From Herpetosiphon aurantiacus DSM 785 (lineage in GTDB: Bacteria > Chloroflexota > Chloroflexia > Chloroflexales > Herpetosiphonaceae): DNA of 64,000 bases. The translations under genes and the position numbers were made by a program. The DNA lies in contig CP000875.1 of NCBI GenBank assembly GCA_000018565.1, positions 3,425,199 to 3,489,198 of the forward strand, given 5' to 3'. This document shows positions 38,802 through 47,594 of this stretch, piece by piece (positions within the stretch are counted from its first letter, which is position 1; each line of letters begins with the position of its first letter). The notes under the pieces are model-generated. The model was not told where the DNA came from. It searched no databases and was given only the letters and a program-made list of their open reading frames with translations.

Positions 38802-39647
38802 ATGACCACCAACCGAACTCAAGCAATCACTGGCGCAGTCGCTGCCATTCGTCAATATACCGAGCGCGTACCCCAAGTTGGCATTATCCTTGGCTCTGGC
38901 TTGAGTCAACTTGTTGATCATATTCAGGATGCCGTGGTAGTTCCCTACACTGCGATTCCAGGCTTCGCACCTTCAGCGGTGCCAGGCCATCGCGGTGAAC
39001 TTGTTTTAGGTGAACTTGGTGGGGTTTCTGTGCTGGCAATGCGTGGCCGCTTTCACTTCTACGAAGGCTATGCCATGGACGAAGTAACCTTGCCTGTGCA
39101 TGTGATGCGAGCGCTGGGAGCCGAGATATTAATTGTTACGAATGCGGCTGGTGGCTTAAATGCCAATTGGCAGGTCGGCGACTTAATGCGCATCAGCGAC
39201 CATATTTTTATGCCAGGCATGGCGGGCTTTCACCCATTGCGCGGCCACAACGACGATACGCTTGGCCCACGCTTCCCAGCCATGCTCAACGCCTATGATT
39301 CTGAATTAGGTGCAATGGCCAAGGCTGCCGCTGAACGGGCTGGCGCAACTCTGCGCGAAGGGGTTTATGCCATGCTAGCCGGGCCATCGTTTGAAACTGG
39401 CGCTGAGATGAACTATCTGCGCGGGGTTGGGGTTGACGCTGTGGGCATGTCTACCGCCCCTGAAACGATTGTGGCTCGCTACCGTGGTATGCGCGTCTTG
39501 GGCATTTCGTTGATCACCAATATTGCCCACCCCGACGCGCCACCAGCCAACCATGAAGAGGTGCTTGAGGCAGGCGAAACTGCCAAGCCCATGTTCAGCG
39601 CATTAATCACCGATGTGCTAAGCCAAATCGCTGCCGATGGCAAGTAG
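38802..39647 (+). CDS. Purine nucleoside phosphorylase
   Basis: The 281-residue enzyme cleaves purine nucleosides with phosphate to base and ribose-1-phosphate. It is the trimeric class I form: VGIILGSGLSQLVDHI, VPGHRGELVLGEL, AMRGRFHFYEGYAMDEVTLP, NAAGGLNANW, GPSFETGAEMNYL and VDAVGMSTAPETIVARYRGM are all canonical. The length is right. The stop overlaps the following CAP gene by 11 bp. It functions in purine salvage. Confidence 0.95.
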   Translation: MTTNRTQAITGAVAAIRQYTERVPQVGIILGSGLSQLVDHIQDAVVVPYTAIPGFAPSAVPGHRGELVLGELGGVSVLAMRGRFHFYEGYAMDEVTLPVHVMRALGAEILIVTNAAGGLNANWQVGDLMRISDHIFMPGMAGFHPLRGHNDDTLGPRFPAMLNAYDSELGAMAKAAAERAGATLREGVYAMLAGPSFETGAEMNYLRGVGVDAVGMSTAPETIVARYRGMRVLGISLITNIAHPDAPPANHEEVLEAGETAKPMFSALITDVLSQIAADGK

Positions 39648-40299
39648 TTTGCGTGGCGTAGGCTTATTGCTGATAGGAATTGTAATTGGCATGATCATTG
39701 GGGTGTGGTGGTTAGCGCCACGCCTCAATGGAACGATTATTCGCTTTGAGAGCGCTACCAATCCAATTGCTAGCCCTAGCGTACCGACGATCACGCCCAA
39801 TCAAGCACCAATGCCAAGCGCCACCAGCCCAGCCAGCCCAAGCAACTCGGCTAGTCCAACTCCATCAGCGACCATCCAAGCAACTGCTAGTTTGACCAGT
39901 TCCGGTGATCTTAAGCTTGATCTGTTAGCGGCGGTTAATCGCGAACGCCAACAAACCAATTGTGAAGCCTTGGTTTTCGATTCGCGGCTGCAAAGCATCG
40001 CCCAAGCCCATGCCGATGATATGGCTCAGCATGAAAAAATTGATCACGTTGGCAGCGATGGTCGCAGCTACAGTCAGCGGCTTGAGGCGGTTGGCTATCA
40101 ATTTATTCGGCGCGGCGAAAATATCTCAGCCTGGTTCGCCACTCCAATCAAGGTTGTGGCTCAATGGATGGACGAGCCAGTTGATGGGCCACATCGCGCC
40201 AACATCACCAATTGTGCTTATCGCCATGTGGGCATTGGCCTAGCCTACGTTGGCGACCACCCGTATTGGGTGCTTGACATGGCCGAACCAAAACCCTAA
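39637..40299 (+). CDS. Membrane-anchored CAP (SCP/PR1)-domain protein
   Basis: The 220-residue protein starts with an uncleaved membrane anchor (residues about 8-30), then a Pro/Ser/Thr linker to about residue 88 (MPSATSPASPSNSASPTPSA). The CAP domain follows with LLAAVNRERQQTNCEALVFD, IAQAHADDMAQHEKIDHVGS, RRGENISAW and CAYRHVGIGLAYVG, including the His-Glu-His-type tetrad positions. Such proteins are extracytoplasmic with unclear enzymology. The start lies inside the PNP gene, so the two are coupled. Confidence 0.88.
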   Translation: MASSLRGVGLLLIGIVIGMIIGVWWLAPRLNGTIIRFESATNPIASPSVPTITPNQAPMPSATSPASPSNSASPTPSATIQATASLTSSGDLKLDLLAAVNRERQQTNCEALVFDSRLQSIAQAHADDMAQHEKIDHVGSDGRSYSQRLEAVGYQFIRRGENISAWFATPIKVVAQWMDEPVDGPHRANITNCAYRHVGIGLAYVGDHPYWVLDMAEPKP

Positions 40300-42382: not shown

Positions 42383-42411
42383 CAACCGATCGCCCTAACG
42401 ACGATCGGTTG
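42383..42411 (-). terminator. Terminator of paralogue 1 of the tandem secreted family
   Basis: A perfect 10 bp stem (CAACCGATCG/CGATCGGTTG) with a 9 nt loop lies 22 bases beyond the stop on the minus strand. The same hairpin sequence, with small changes, closes the other two paralogues (43862-43892, 45766-45810). Confidence 0.75.
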
Positions 42412-42432: not shown

Positions 42433-43596
42433 TTATTGGTTTTTGGCAAGCGGAATAAAGAGTTTATAGGGTAGACCATCGTGTACTTGCACATTAATGG
42501 GATTACGGGCGCTCGTATAACCAAATGTCCAGCCATCACCAACAAACATATCGGCTATGGCTCGACCATTAATTGTTAACATCCCTGGAGCCGTCGCCCG
42601 TAACGTAATCGTCGAACACTGGGTCGGATGTTCCGAATAGCGACATGGCATGGTCAATGGCGGATCAAACTGAGCCAATTCGCTTGAGCTAAGCATGATT
42701 TCCATGCGAGGTGCACTCATATTCTGATAATCGACGGTCATGGTAAACATATCGCCAACCTGAACTTGGCTTGGCGCATTCAAAATCAACTGATGCGACA
42801 CTGCTGGTTGACAAGGCACAGGAGTGATTGTCGAAGTAGAACTTGGCGTTGGCGTTTCGGTTAAATCAGGAACGCGTTGACCAACCACGGTTGGAGTATA
42901 GGTTGGCTGGGCCGTGGACGTAGGCGTTAATGTGGCAGGCACACACGTTGGGGTTGGCACTGGGGTGCCATTTGGATCGATAACATTAATCGTCAGTGGA
43001 GTTCGTGCCGCTGCTGAACTCCAATACCAACCATAATGAAACGATTCACCTCGTGCATCAGCATTGATAACCAAGGTACCAACGCTGGTAGCTCGCAACG
43101 TAATACGCTCACAGCGGGTTGGGTGGCGATCATATTGACATGGCATGACTAATGGTGGGTCAAACCGTGCCAAATTTGCATCGTTAAACCAGATTCGCGT
43201 GTGTTGCATACCAATATTTTCATAGGTAATCGATAAAGTGAATAATTCGCCAACATTAACTTGGCTTGGTCCATTGAGAAATAAGGTCGGATGCACATAG
43301 CAAGGATCAATATTGGGGGTTGGAACGGGGGTGCGCGTTGGGCTTGAGTTTGGTATATGCGCTTGGGCATCGCTCTCGAACAGATAGTAGGTTGGACAGA
43401 TGACAGTCGGTGTCATGATAGAAGTACTATTTGGTGATGGTACTATAGAACTACTTGTTGCAATGGAAATTTCGCTTGGGGTTGGGGTTTCAGTTAATCT
43501 TACTTTGGCATTTGTTAATCCAGGGTTTTTAGCGACAGCAAAAGCAAATAACACTGCACATAAACTAACTAACAAAGCCAGCCGCCTGTTATCCAT
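42433..43596 (-). CDS. Secreted Thr/Pro-linked repeat-domain protein, paralogue 1 (two domains)
   Basis: The 387-residue protein has a signal peptide (NRRLALLVSLCAVLFAFAVA), a Ser/Thr/Pro linker to about residue 100, one repeat domain (about 104-207), a second TPT linker, a second domain (about 269-372) and the tail LPYKLFIPLAKNQ. Each domain follows the pattern [LI]-x-L-[NS]-[AG]-P-S-Q-V-x-V-G-[DE]-x-F, then FDPPL.MPC, HPTxC, LRA and RNPI. The Cys pair (C153/C162, C318/C327) is probably a disulfide. Domain 1 is the most diverged. I cannot assign a function; adhesin or surface layer component is a guess. It has its own leader and terminator. Confidence 0.85.
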   Translation of the reverse strand: MDNRRLALLVSLCAVLFAFAVAKNPGLTNAKVRLTETPTPSEISIATSSSIVPSPNSTSIMTPTVICPTYYLFESDAQAHIPNSSPTRTPVPTPNIDPCYVHPTLFLNGPSQVNVGELFTLSITYENIGMQHTRIWFNDANLARFDPPLVMPCQYDRHPTRCERITLRATSVGTLVINADARGESFHYGWYWSSAAARTPLTINVIDPNGTPVPTPTCVPATLTPTSTAQPTYTPTVVGQRVPDLTETPTPSSTSTITPVPCQPAVSHQLILNAPSQVQVGDMFTMTVDYQNMSAPRMEIMLSSSELAQFDPPLTMPCRYSEHPTQCSTITLRATAPGMLTINGRAIADMFVGDGWTFGYTSARNPINVQVHDGLPYKLFIPLAKNQ

Positions 43597-43861
43597 AGAA
43601 GTCTCCTTGATTCCGAATAATAATCCTAGACTCTTAGTATTGACTATCAGAACTATGCTTGCTATAGGACTAACAGCCCAAAAATAAACTTATTTACAAC
43701 GATCGTTATTATTATTCATTAAGCAAGCCTTTATGGCTACGTTGCAGCATCAAATTTCTGGTACGTGCTTTGAAACCGATTTAGCAAGAGGGTAATCTCC
43801 ATTACAATCTCCCAAATCTAAAGAACTATCACTTCTAACCTTGAAGAATTATGTTTAAATA
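43597..43861 (-). promoter_or_regulatory. Leader region of paralogue 1
   Basis: CTTAGTATTGACTATCAGAA (near 43635) and GCTATAGGACTAACAGCCCA (43661-43680) match the stronger shared leader of paralogues 2 and 3. The paralogue 1 copy is the most diverged. The rest of this A/T-rich stretch shows no gene. Confidence 0.5.
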
Positions 43862-43892
43862 TCAACCGATCGCCCTAGCGACGATCGGTTGA
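43862..43892 (-). terminator. Terminator of paralogue 2
   Basis: An 11 bp stem (TCAACCGATCG/CGATCGGTTGA) with a 9 nt loop lies 21 bases past the stop of paralogue 2 on the minus strand. Confidence 0.75.
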
Positions 43893-43912
43893 GCAGGTTT
43901 GAAATCAGCGGT

Positions 43913-45601
43913 TTATTGGGTTTTGACGAACGGAATAAAGGCTTTGTGGGCTAAAACGCTGCGTACTTGAACATTAATAGGATTCCGTGCATGAGCGCTA
44001 CCCCAAGCCCAGCCACCACCAGAAATTGGCACTTCGCCATTCGCTCCGGCATTAATCGTAATCGTACCAGGCGCAACCGCCCGCAAACCAATCGTGCGGC
44101 AATCGGTTGGGTGCTCATTGAATTTACATGGCATCGTCAATGGTGGATCGAATTGGACAGTTCCGGTTGGGCTGAGCGTAATTCCAGTATAGGGCACGCC
44201 AATATTGACATACTGAATCGTCAAACTGAATGCATCACCAACATTGACCAATGGCGGCGCACTCAAAATCAATTCTGAAACAATTGGCGTAATGGTCGGA
44301 CTCCCACGGTTTGGCGTGATCGTTGGGGTTCCGATACAAGTACTACCGCGCATCGCCAAGTTGGTTGGGCATGGAGTGGCCGTTTTAGTAGCCGTTGGGG
44401 TTGGCGTACACGGCACTTGGGTTGTTTGCACGCGATTGCTATTCAATGGTTGAGCGGTTGGCGTGAAACATGGTGCACTTGGAAAGGTCGGCGTTGCGGT
44501 TGAAGTTGGCGTTGGAGTACACGGCGCTTGGGTTACTTGGGGTGCTTGCTTCTGAATTGGCCGTGTGGTTGGCGTATAGCATGGATAGCTTGGGAAGGTT
44601 GGAGTTGGCGTGCCAGTCTTAGTCGGTGTTGGCGTAAAGGTTGGTGTGCCATCACCCGCCACAATATTTACATACACAGGATTACGTGCCCGTGCCCCAC
44701 CCCACATCCAGCCGCCATCAATAAACAATTCACCAGTTGCCCAGGCATCAATCGTTAATTCGCCTACAGCGGTTGCCCGCAAGCGGATTTTGGTACAATG
44801 GGTTGGGTCTTCAAAGAAATCGCAGGGCATGACTGATGGCGCTTCAACTTGAGCCAAGCCATTGGGGCTGAGGCTAATGCCAGTATCTGGCGCACCAATA
44901 TTCACATAATCAATCGTTAGCGTAAAGACATCGCCAACTCGGACTTGGCTTGGGGCACTCAACAGCAACTCGGCATATGAAGTTTGTTGGCATGGCAGAG
45001 CTGTTGGTGTTGGTGTGCGAGTTTTGGTTGGAGTTGGCGTGGCAGTCGCCTGACCTGCTGGAGTTGGGGTATAGGTTGGCAACATCGTAGACGTTGGGGT
45101 TCGGGTCGCAGGCACACAGGTTGGCATAGGAGTTGGCGTGGCAGTCGCATTCGGATCAATCACATCGATCCAAATTGGATTCCGTGCTTGAGCGCTACCC
45201 CAAGCCCAACCACCGCCAGCAATTGGCACTTCGCCAGTCGCCGATGCGAAGATTTCTAGCATTCCCCCAGTTGTTGCCCGTAATGTAATCGATTGACAAC
45301 CTGTTGGATGTTCATTGTACTTACAAGGCATCGTCATCGGCGGATCAAATTGAGCCAGATTGTTCGGACTCATCGTGATTGTGGTGTAGGGCAAACCAAT
45401 ATTGACGTACTGAATCGTAATTGTGAACAGTTGACCAACTTGGACTTCGGTCGGGCCGCTCAGAATTAATTCTGAACGAAGTGGTGTTGGAGTTGGCGTT
45501 AATAACGCCTTGGCGCTTGTTACTTCAGGTCGTTTAGCCACAGCAAAGCCAAGCAACACTGCACACAAGCTCACTAACAGGGCCAGCCGCCTGTTATTCA
45601 T
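43913..45601 (-). CDS. Secreted Thr/Pro-linked repeat-domain protein, paralogue 2 (three domains)
   Basis: The 562-residue protein has the same signal peptide as its neighbours (NNRRLALLVSLCAVLLGFAV) and three copies of the repeat domain at about residues 43-149, 210-314 and 442-548. The Cys pairs are C93/C102, C260/C269 and C492/C501. Domains 1 and 3 share GEVPI.GGGWAWGSA.ARNPI almost exactly. A roughly 130-residue, Cys- and TPT-rich linker (about 315-440, with repeated APCTPTPT and PCFTPTAQ units) separates domains 2 and 3. The tail is LAHKAFIPFVKTQ. It is the most regular family member. The fold looks like a beta-sandwich, but I do not recognise a named family. Confidence 0.87.
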   Translation of the reverse strand: MNNRRLALLVSLCAVLLGFAVAKRPEVTSAKALLTPTPTPLRSELILSGPTEVQVGQLFTITIQYVNIGLPYTTITMSPNNLAQFDPPMTMPCKYNEHPTGCQSITLRATTGGMLEIFASATGEVPIAGGGWAWGSAQARNPIWIDVIDPNATATPTPMPTCVPATRTPTSTMLPTYTPTPAGQATATPTPTKTRTPTPTALPCQQTSYAELLLSAPSQVRVGDVFTLTIDYVNIGAPDTGISLSPNGLAQVEAPSVMPCDFFEDPTHCTKIRLRATAVGELTIDAWATGELFIDGGWMWGGARARNPVYVNIVAGDGTPTFTPTPTKTGTPTPTFPSYPCYTPTTRPIQKQAPQVTQAPCTPTPTSTATPTFPSAPCFTPTAQPLNSNRVQTTQVPCTPTPTATKTATPCPTNLAMRGSTCIGTPTITPNRGSPTITPIVSELILSAPPLVNVGDAFSLTIQYVNIGVPYTGITLSPTGTVQFDPPLTMPCKFNEHPTDCRTIGLRAVAPGTITINAGANGEVPISGGGWAWGSAHARNPINVQVRSVLAHKAFIPFVKTQ

Positions 45602-45638
45602 AGGGGTCCTCCTCTATATGAGATTAATCGGCCTAGGC

Positions 45639-45745
45639 TTCTAAGTATTCATCAACTAAGCCTAATCCTGCTATAGGACAAATGGCCCAAAAAACAAGCT
45701 ATCTAGCTTACTAGATATTAAAAATCATTAAAGAAGCTTGCTATG
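45639..45745 (-). promoter_or_regulatory. Conserved leader element of paralogue 2
   Basis: CCTAATCCTGCTATAGGACA (near 45660) and TAGATATTAAAAATCATTAA (near 45715) are shared almost base for base with the leader of paralogue 3 (47500-47594). On the coding strand the first contains a small inverted repeat, TCCT-N5-AGGA. It is probably a promoter or regulator site duplicated with the gene. Confidence 0.6.
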
Positions 45746-45765
45746 AATAATAAATTTAAACTGAA

Positions 45766-45810
45766 TTAAACAGCAACCGATCGCTGCCATAGCGATCGGT
45801 TGCTGTTTAA
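45766..45810 (-). terminator. Terminator of paralogue 3
   Basis: A perfect 20 bp stem (45766-45785 with 45791-45810; core CAGCAACCGATCGCT) has a 5 nt loop. It is unusually long and lies just past the stop of paralogue 3 on the minus strand. Confidence 0.8.
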
Positions 45811-45823
45811 TCAACTCAGCAGT

Positions 45824-47461
45824 TTATTTTCTCGCCAGCGGAATAAAAATCCGATATGCTAATACGTCGCGCACTTGAATCGAAATTGGGTTTGAAAAAG
45901 CACTGCCCCAAGCCCAACCACCCCCAGCAATTGGCACCTCGCCAGTTGCTCGAGCGCTAAGGTGAAGGGAGCCTGCGGCAATTGCCCGCAACCGAATGGT
46001 GCGACACTGGGTTGGATGCTGATTGAATTTACATGGCATGATCAATGGTGGATCAAATTGCCCAATTCCGCCTGACCAATTGGTAACCCTCGTATAGGGC
46101 ATCCCAATATTGATATACTGGATCGTCGCGGTAAAAACGTCACCAACATTGACCAGGTATGGCGCACTCAAAAACAACTCTGAAACAATCGGCGTAGCCG
46201 TTGCGGTGCCATTGATTGGTGTAATAGTTGAGGTTCCGCCACAACCACTGCCGCTGATTGCTAAGTTCGTTGGGCATGGTGTAGCAGTTTTGGTAGCGGT
46301 CGGAGTTGGTGTACGGGTTGGTATGGCATTGTTTGGCAGAATATTAATATAAACTGGATTGCGAGCATTCGCATACCCATCCTCCGCCTGTTGACCACTA
46401 ATGAAAATCAGGCCAAAAGCACTAGCATCGATCGTTAATTCACCAGCGGAAGTCGCCCGCATGGTTATCTCTTCACATGAAGTAGGGTGCGAGAATCGTT
46501 GGCAAGGCATTGCTAGCGGCGGATCAAACATCGCTAAATCATTCGAGGCGCGGCTAATATTGACGGTATAAGGGGCAATATTCACATAATTCATTGTCAA
46601 GGTAAAAATATCGCCAACCTGCACTTGGCTTGGGGCATGCAACACCAACTCGGCATATGCGGTTTGGTAGCATGTCAAGGGGGCAGCAGTTGGGGTTGGA
46701 GTACGGGTTGGGATTGGGGCCGAAGTGGCTGTCGCCTGACCAGCCAGCGTTGGCGTATTTGTTGGTATATTTGAGGTTGGGGTGCTGGTAGCAGGTATGC
46801 AGGTTGGCACAGGCGTAAAGGTTGACGTTGGCGTTGAATTCCAATCAATAATATTAATAAAAACTGGCGCTTGGGCTTCAATCCAAATGAGGTGCCAACC
46901 ACCATTGTAATAAGCTTCGCCTAATGCCGCTGCATCAAAATCAAAAACCCCTGGATTGGTGGCTCGTAGGGTAAAGCTCGTGCAATGCGTTGGGTGTTGC
47001 TCAGCAACACATATTTCATTCATTGGTGGCTCAAAATGGGCTAAACCGCCATCACTAGCCCAGAGAGAGGTCGAGGGTGAGGCCAGATTGATATACTGGA
47101 TTGAGATGGTGAATAGCTCGCCAACCTCGACCTGGCTTGGTGCTGTGATAATCACCTTTGGCTCGACAAAACAGGGATCATTTGGAGTTGCGGTAAAGGT
47201 TGGTCTTTCGGTTAATGTTGGCTGCTGCCGAGTAGGGGTAACAGTAGCATTGGGCCGAATCCATTGCGTTGGCGTTGGCGGGTTTACCACACAGGTTGGA
47301 GTAGGGAGCATCTTACGATCAGAGGCAAGCGGATCGATGCTTTGATTGTGGGTTGAAGGTAACAGTCCATTGGCGCTGATTGCCTCGGAGCGTTTAGCCA
47401 TAGTAAAGCCAAGCAACACCGCGCACAAGCATACGAACAGGGCTAGCTGCCTGTTGTTCAT
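45824..47461 (-). CDS. Secreted Thr/Pro-linked repeat-domain protein, paralogue 3 (three domains)
   Basis: The 545-residue protein has the family signal peptide (NNRQLALFVCLCAVLLGFTM), a long TPT/Asn linker to about residue 98, and three domains at about 101-205, 268-372 and 428-533. Domain 3 is nearly identical in its C-terminal half to those of paralogue 2 (GEVPIAGGGWAWGSA). Domain 1 is the most diverged, with NEICVAEQHPTHC in place of the MPC..HPTxC motif. The linker SGSGCGGTSTITPINGTATA matches the corresponding linker in paralogue 2. The tail is LAYRIFIPLARK. Duplication of whole modules inside and between the three genes is evident. Confidence 0.86.
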   Translation of the reverse strand: MNNRQLALFVCLCAVLLGFTMAKRSEAISANGLLPSTHNQSIDPLASDRKMLPTPTCVVNPPTPTQWIRPNATVTPTRQQPTLTERPTFTATPNDPCFVEPKVIITAPSQVEVGELFTISIQYINLASPSTSLWASDGGLAHFEPPMNEICVAEQHPTHCTSFTLRATNPGVFDFDAAALGEAYYNGGWHLIWIEAQAPVFINIIDWNSTPTSTFTPVPTCIPATSTPTSNIPTNTPTLAGQATATSAPIPTRTPTPTAAPLTCYQTAYAELVLHAPSQVQVGDIFTLTMNYVNIAPYTVNISRASNDLAMFDPPLAMPCQRFSHPTSCEEITMRATSAGELTIDASAFGLIFISGQQAEDGYANARNPVYINILPNNAIPTRTPTPTATKTATPCPTNLAISGSGCGGTSTITPINGTATATPIVSELFLSAPYLVNVGDVFTATIQYINIGMPYTRVTNWSGGIGQFDPPLIMPCKFNQHPTQCRTIRLRAIAAGSLHLSARATGEVPIAGGGWAWGSAFSNPISIQVRDVLAYRIFIPLARK

Positions 47462-47498: not shown

Positions 47499-47594
47499 CT
47501 TAGTATTCCTCAACCAAGCCTAATCCTGCTATAGGACAAATAGCCCATTAACCGAAATATCTAGTAATATAGATATTAAAGATCATTAAAAGAT
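47499..47594 (-). promoter_or_regulatory. Conserved leader element of paralogue 3
   Basis: CTTAGTATTCCTCAACCAAG, CCTAATCCTGCTATAGGACA and TAGATATTAAAGATCATTAA repeat the leader of paralogue 2 over about 95 bp at the same distance from the start codon. Confidence 0.6.

Follow-up and report, generated by a model that had tools for sequence, protein, structure and literature searches.

Three adjacent genes raise the question of what kind of protein they encode, and what the domain repeated in their products does, in Herpetosiphon aurantiacus, a Gram-negative-staining, filamentous, gliding and predatory member of the phylum Chloroflexota. We analysed the genes within a stretch of 64,000 nucleotides of the genome of strain DSM 785 (the window). 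An earlier note on this DNA had described a minus-strand tandem family of secreted multi-domain proteins with two, three and three copies of an unrecognised domain, and our analysis agrees with that description for the genes that we call A, B and C (Table 1). All three proteins begin with near-identical leaders (M[ND]NR[RQ]LAL.V.LCAVL..F), which supports, at the level of sequence, their classification as export-type proteins; judged from the leader alone, we infer that the products are exported, and they are presumably located at the surface. The modules are joined by linkers in which 47–54% of residues are Thr, Pro or Ser, consistent with the Thr-Pro linkers described earlier. Domain searches matched no recognised domain in the tandem proteins besides the modules.

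Table 1. Genes, modules and expression signals of the tandem cluster, with positions in the window.
Feature	Positions	Strand	Description	Basis or remark
Gene A	42433..43596	-	387-aa export-type protein; 2 predicted Ig-like modules; tail YKLFIPLAKNQ	ORF call; dN/dS 0.31 vs G001 orthologue
Gene B	43913..45601	-	562-aa export-type protein; 3 modules; tail HKAFIPFVKTQ	ORF call; dN/dS 0.08–0.11
Gene C	45824..47461	-	545-aa export-type protein; 3 modules; tail YRIFIPLARK; most divergent	ORF call; tree
Module A1	42970..43290	-	residues 103–209	
Module A2	42475..42795	-	residues 268–374	
Module B1	45149..45475	-	residues 43–151; copy used for AlphaFold2 model	
Module B2	44654..44974	-	residues 210–316	
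Module B3	43952..44278	-	residues 442–550	
Module C1	46838..47161	-	residues 101–208; divergent	
Module C2	46328..46654	-	residues 270–378; no W-x-W strand	
Module C3	45860..46183	-	residues 427–534	
5' block, gene A	43661..43680	-	conserved block upstream of gene A	
5' block, gene B	45670..45689	-	conserved block upstream of gene B	
5' block, gene C	47528..47547	-	conserved block TGGGCYRTTWGTCCTATAGC upstream of gene C	perfect genome match only at three cluster genes
Hairpin, gene A	42384..42410	-	AACCGATCG...CGATCGGTT after gene A	
Hairpin, gene B	43864..43890	-	AACCGATCG...CGATCGGTT after gene B	
Hairpin, gene C	45775..45801	-	AACCGATCG...CGATCGGTT after gene C; intrinsic-terminator-like	

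The module is ~108 residues long, close to the ~105 residues first proposed. Alignment of the eight cluster copies gave 17 invariant columns, both Cys included, and all 28 pairs of copies scored at least 179, as compared with a maximum of 55 in 560 shuffled controls; chance is excluded as the source of the similarity. The Cys pair that the earlier note had called invariant is nine positions apart (C-x8-C) in 39 of 39 copies from eight genomes, and a disulfide between the two residues most likely closes the module. The other motifs listed at that time, which include the pattern FDPPL-MPC, are present in the copies as stated, but with departures in C1 (FEPPMNEIC), in B2 (VEAPSVMPC) and in C2, which lacks the Trp strand. 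The module ends in R-N-P-[IV], and 34 of the 39 copies have W-x-[WF] in the hairpin that precedes the last strand, with a variable residue between the two tryptophans of W-x-W. The W-x-W motif is missing from C2 and from both copies found in MAGs. At the position of this hairpin both MAG copies (L055:5734-6459 and L056:1-414) have C-x-C, which may form a second disulfide.

The structure-model check proposed in the earlier note, run on module B1, yielded a confident Ig-like beta-sandwich (AlphaFold2 with 19 sequences: pLDDT 95.4, pTM 0.83, nine strands, no helix), in keeping with the definition of that fold class as a two-sheet, all-beta sandwich of 7–9 strands. The repeat is therefore confidently predicted to be an Ig-like beta-sandwich. 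Fold comparison with Foldseek and VIA-align matched the nucleoporin Ig domain 9hcj (Z 10.3, rmsd 1.9 over 85 residues), the cohesin-like modules 2w1n, 2jh2 and 2vo8 of Clostridium perfringens glycosidases (Z 9.2–10.0, rmsd 2.8–2.9, 100–101 residues) and, all at Z 8.0–8.9, LigA, S-layer SbsC (Z 8.5), filamin and CARDB (3idu, Z 8.0). We discounted the many antibody and nanobody rows of the PDB fold searches as reflecting general Ig likeness, and a search of viral structures likewise gave general Ig-like matches only. As no single structural match stands out, the assignment is secure only at the level of the fold class, and matches at Z 8–10 among Ig-like sandwiches say nothing on function.

No curated Pfam or NCBIfam family matched the module at cut-off, in line with the earlier failure to recognise a named family, and sequence searches against solved structures gave nothing significant. 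The possibility that the domain belongs to a known Pfam family, for example CARDB or a bacterial Ig fold, is thus borne out for the fold, the model being Ig-like, but not for the sequence family, for which there was no Ig-like or CARDB match. CARDB (PF07705) shares with the module its Ig-like fold and a similar start (VGDxFTLTIxYVNxG); however, the CARDB end, E-x-N-E-x-NN, is absent from the module, and we do not assign the module to CARDB, given a profile-profile probability of 0.7% against 11 Chloroflexales CARDB domains. The BatD DUF11-like family (PF13584) gave a sub-threshold match over most of the module (E 6e-4), but at 20.8 bits this falls short of the cut-off of 24.1, and no BatD match was found in the 26 genomes searched. 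The cohesin profile (PF00963) did not match the modules, and other Ig sandwiches lie within 1–2 Z of the cohesin fold matches. The module is similar to Ig-like stalk and accessory modules (S-layer SbsB/SbsC, LigA, and the cohesin-like modules of C. perfringens GH84C and GH33) in its predicted all-beta sandwich, its modular arrangement on flexible linkers and its occurrence in a carbohydrate-active enzyme. By contrast, identity to these proteins in structural alignments is 8–14%, with no common sequence family, and the Herpetosiphon module is distinguished by its invariant Cys loop and its restriction to one genus and two MAGs.

That enzyme was identified by a domain-profile search, which found nine clear copies of the module in the H. 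aurantiacus genome: the eight in the cluster and one at C1:6131374. This ninth copy is part of a secreted xylanase encoded by a 652-aa ORF; a GH10 xylanase domain (E 7e-105) lies on one side of it and a CBM2 cellulose-binding domain (E 4e-32) on the other, with Thr/Pro linkers in between. By both Pfam domains the gene is an ordinary member of the GH10 xylanases with CBM2; unlike them, it holds an unnamed module between the two domains. The other five Herpetosiphon genomes also have the module in a protein of like size class and GH10-X-CBM2 layout (6/6 in total), with linkers that differ in length between species and modules that remain constant. The xylanase modules group in the tree as a single clade next to the C-terminal modules of the cluster, with modest support (89/89). 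Beyond the genus we found only two relatives, in a Herpetosiphonaceae MAG and on a 3-kb contig of an Oscillochloris MAG that may have been binned wrongly; the scan of the large collection used two short peptide patterns. Among 400 sampled Chloroflexota genomes, with few candidates scored per genome, matches were confined to Herpetosiphon and the Oscillochloris MAG, and almost none of the other searched genomes of the order has the module. Very distant relatives would escape both searches. The restriction to Chloroflexota that the earlier note had proposed to check is supported by these searches, which in fact narrow it almost to one genus. We rejected a viral or plasmid origin, there being no relative in viral contigs or plasmids. 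The PHROG match of gene B falls in a Thr/Pro linker, and those of the xylanase start in linkers.

The cluster genes of the six searched Herpetosiphon genomes all share one chromosomal slot, which lies between what we take, from their sequences, to be a HIT-family gene and an ABC-transporter ATPase gene of the cytochrome-c-maturation type. The slot holds three genes in H. aurantiacus and in the genome G001, where an in-frame stop breaks one of them; H. giganteus and H. llansteffanensis have two each, and H. geysericola and the genome G003 one each. G001 has an additional two-module gene outside the slot, and its orthologue of gene C (L089:9291-10940, minus strand) carries one in-frame stop in a linker, with the flanking modules open. 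The C-terminal modules of most genes cluster in the tree, as do several first modules, and this grouping of modules from corresponding positions indicates whole-gene duplication; together with the module scores relative to shuffled controls, it bears out the intra- and inter-gene duplication suggested earlier. Selection on the module family is purifying: dN/dS was 0.08–0.31 for genes A and B and 0.05 for the xylanase module, as compared with ~0.02 for two neighbours, the HIT and the MscS-like gene. Divergence is highest in gene C, whose modules belong to the more relaxed ones (dN/dS 0.15–0.32). A CAP/SCP-like exported protein encoded on the plus strand next to the cluster (39637-40299 of the window) has a dN/dS of 0.12, and is thus about as free as the tandem genes.

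Each gene has its own leader and terminator, as had been claimed, in the form of a conserved 5' block, an RBS and a hairpin. The 5' block lies ~65–88 bases before the start codon and is kept in 12 of 13 genes across species, and the hairpin has no further occurrence in the genome beyond the ends of the three genes. Since every gene has the same end hairpin and the conserved 5' block, the duplicated unit comprises leader, gene and terminator. We found no support for a regulon sharing the 5' block: perfect matches are confined to the three cluster genes, and matches with three mismatches look like chance or like an unrelated duplicated element. An RNA leader or riboswitch was also rejected, the Rfam matches being weak, implausible and far below gathering scores. 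The proposed phase advantage is unsupported, as a search for simple repeats found no tandem DNA repeat able to drive phase variation, and so is a dosage advantage; copy number simply varies between species, from 1 to 3. As a separate observation, L202:3119-4866 contains a DNA element present ~4 times in tandem (spacing ~410–490 bases) with a strong terminator-like hairpin; short ORFs inside it look spurious.

The proteins of genes A, B and C share a C-terminal tail, F-I-P-[LF]-x-[KR] (FIPLAKNQ, FIPFVKTQ and FIPLARK). In a 1.26-Mb sample of the genome, taken as stretches at even steps, a motif of this type terminates 17 of the 267 ORFs to which a crude test assigned a signal peptide, as compared with 2 of the 555 others (Fisher p 3e-7; the internal rate predicts about one in each set), and independent cases are fewer than these counts, since the sample includes two of the three cluster genes and a tandem paralogue group on L097. 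No such enrichment was seen in a small sample (400 kb) of two other Chloroflexales genomes. The cluster tails resemble the Y-L-P box of a putative sorting motif (NCBIfam NF050076 and NF053834), but these models matched none of five tails of the module family, while matching two other Herpetosiphon tails. A literature search found no paper describing the YLP-box sorting motif or using that name. More generally, exported Herpetosiphon proteins (for example at L097:9108-18111, L102:5574-8180 and L127:12824-15403) show a strong enrichment of a short [FY]-[LIM]-P tail near the C-terminus, which NCBIfam in part names as the YLP-box motif. The first of these loci, on the plus strand, encodes four tandem paralogous secreted-type proteins (553–730 aa) with VYLPLVSK-like tails; the second, on the minus strand, encodes a relative of the type IX secretion sortase PorU (868 aa; E 5e-56, short of the curated cut-off) whose tail is QAIYLPAIIK.

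With regard to function, the explanation that we prefer, and to which we give an even chance, is that of a lineage-specific Ig-like extracellular module, with binding somewhat favoured over spacing. The module would work outside the cell, and the three tandem genes would yield non-catalytic exported proteins whose two or three modules, on flexible Thr/Pro linkers, may serve as multivalent binders or stalks at or close to the surface of the filament; the module would also have been shuffled into, or out of, the GH10-CBM2 xylanase, between the enzyme and the cellulose binder. Its most likely role would be weak multivalent contact with polysaccharide or matrix, perhaps via the W-x-W hairpin, a plausible sugar-contact site, with plain spacing as the fallback. 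The variable residue between the tryptophans would, however, also fit buried tryptophans. Two further points count against binding: a module placed between a catalytic domain and a CBM is often no more than a spacer, and H. aurantiacus is reported not to hydrolyse cellulose (PMC3368417). A more specific form of the binding explanation, in which the module is a new, disulfide-closed Ig-like family of carbohydrate-binding modules and the tandem proteins are multivalent polysaccharide binders holding filament, xylanase or prey on a surface, we consider rather unlikely. It is possible, if somewhat unlikely, that the modules bind nothing and are pure spacers or stalks that keep some other function, for example the catalytic domain of the xylanase, off a surface, in the manner of bacterial Ig-like stalk repeats. 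The fold, the position between GH10 and CBM2 with Thr/Pro linkers, and the constancy of the modules where linker length varies are all consistent with spacing, but in the tandem proteins no further domain is recognised that a stalk could present, and the conservation of the W-x-[WF] hairpin and the Cys loop in almost every copy goes beyond the apparent need of a spacer.

Two further explanations assign the tandem proteins a role apart from weak binding or spacing. They could be surface adhesins or sheath proteins needed for gliding, in line with the suggestion of the earlier note, a role that we regard as improbable. In its favour, the module is present in every searched species of a gliding, filament-forming genus, and the gliding genes of Chloroflexota are reported to be unknown (PMC3368417). 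Nevertheless, searches of the other genomes of the order almost never found the module, although gliding is reported for Chloroflexus as well (PMC13104615); two Herpetosiphon species have only one gene, and the only informative common context is the xylanase. That context makes polysaccharide contact more likely than a function in gliding, which the analysis does not support. Less probable still is that the tandem proteins are small scaffoldins whose cohesin-like modules capture dockerin-bearing enzymes. The C. perfringens cohesin-like modules are among the closest folds, aligning over ~100 of 109 residues, and a cellulosome cohesin profile gave a weak, non-significant match (E 0.75), but there was no Pfam cohesin match, unrelated Ig sandwiches score nearly as high, and the genome has no cohesin and one marginal dockerin at the cut-off. 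With dockerins all but lacking, such scaffoldins would have no set of enzymes to capture, and a cellulosome-like role is unlikely; we rejected a cellulosome-like scaffold on this basis.

We conclude that the module is a real, so far unnamed, nearly genus-restricted domain family of known fold, and that it would suit as a clean new Pfam family. The family alone leaves the larger picture unchanged; it will interest annotators and students of Herpetosiphon, and its general interest is modest. Its delimitation defines an unclassified domain shared by all searched members of a genus of gliding predators with little-known surface proteins, and the xylanase context provides a concrete handle on what that domain may bind.
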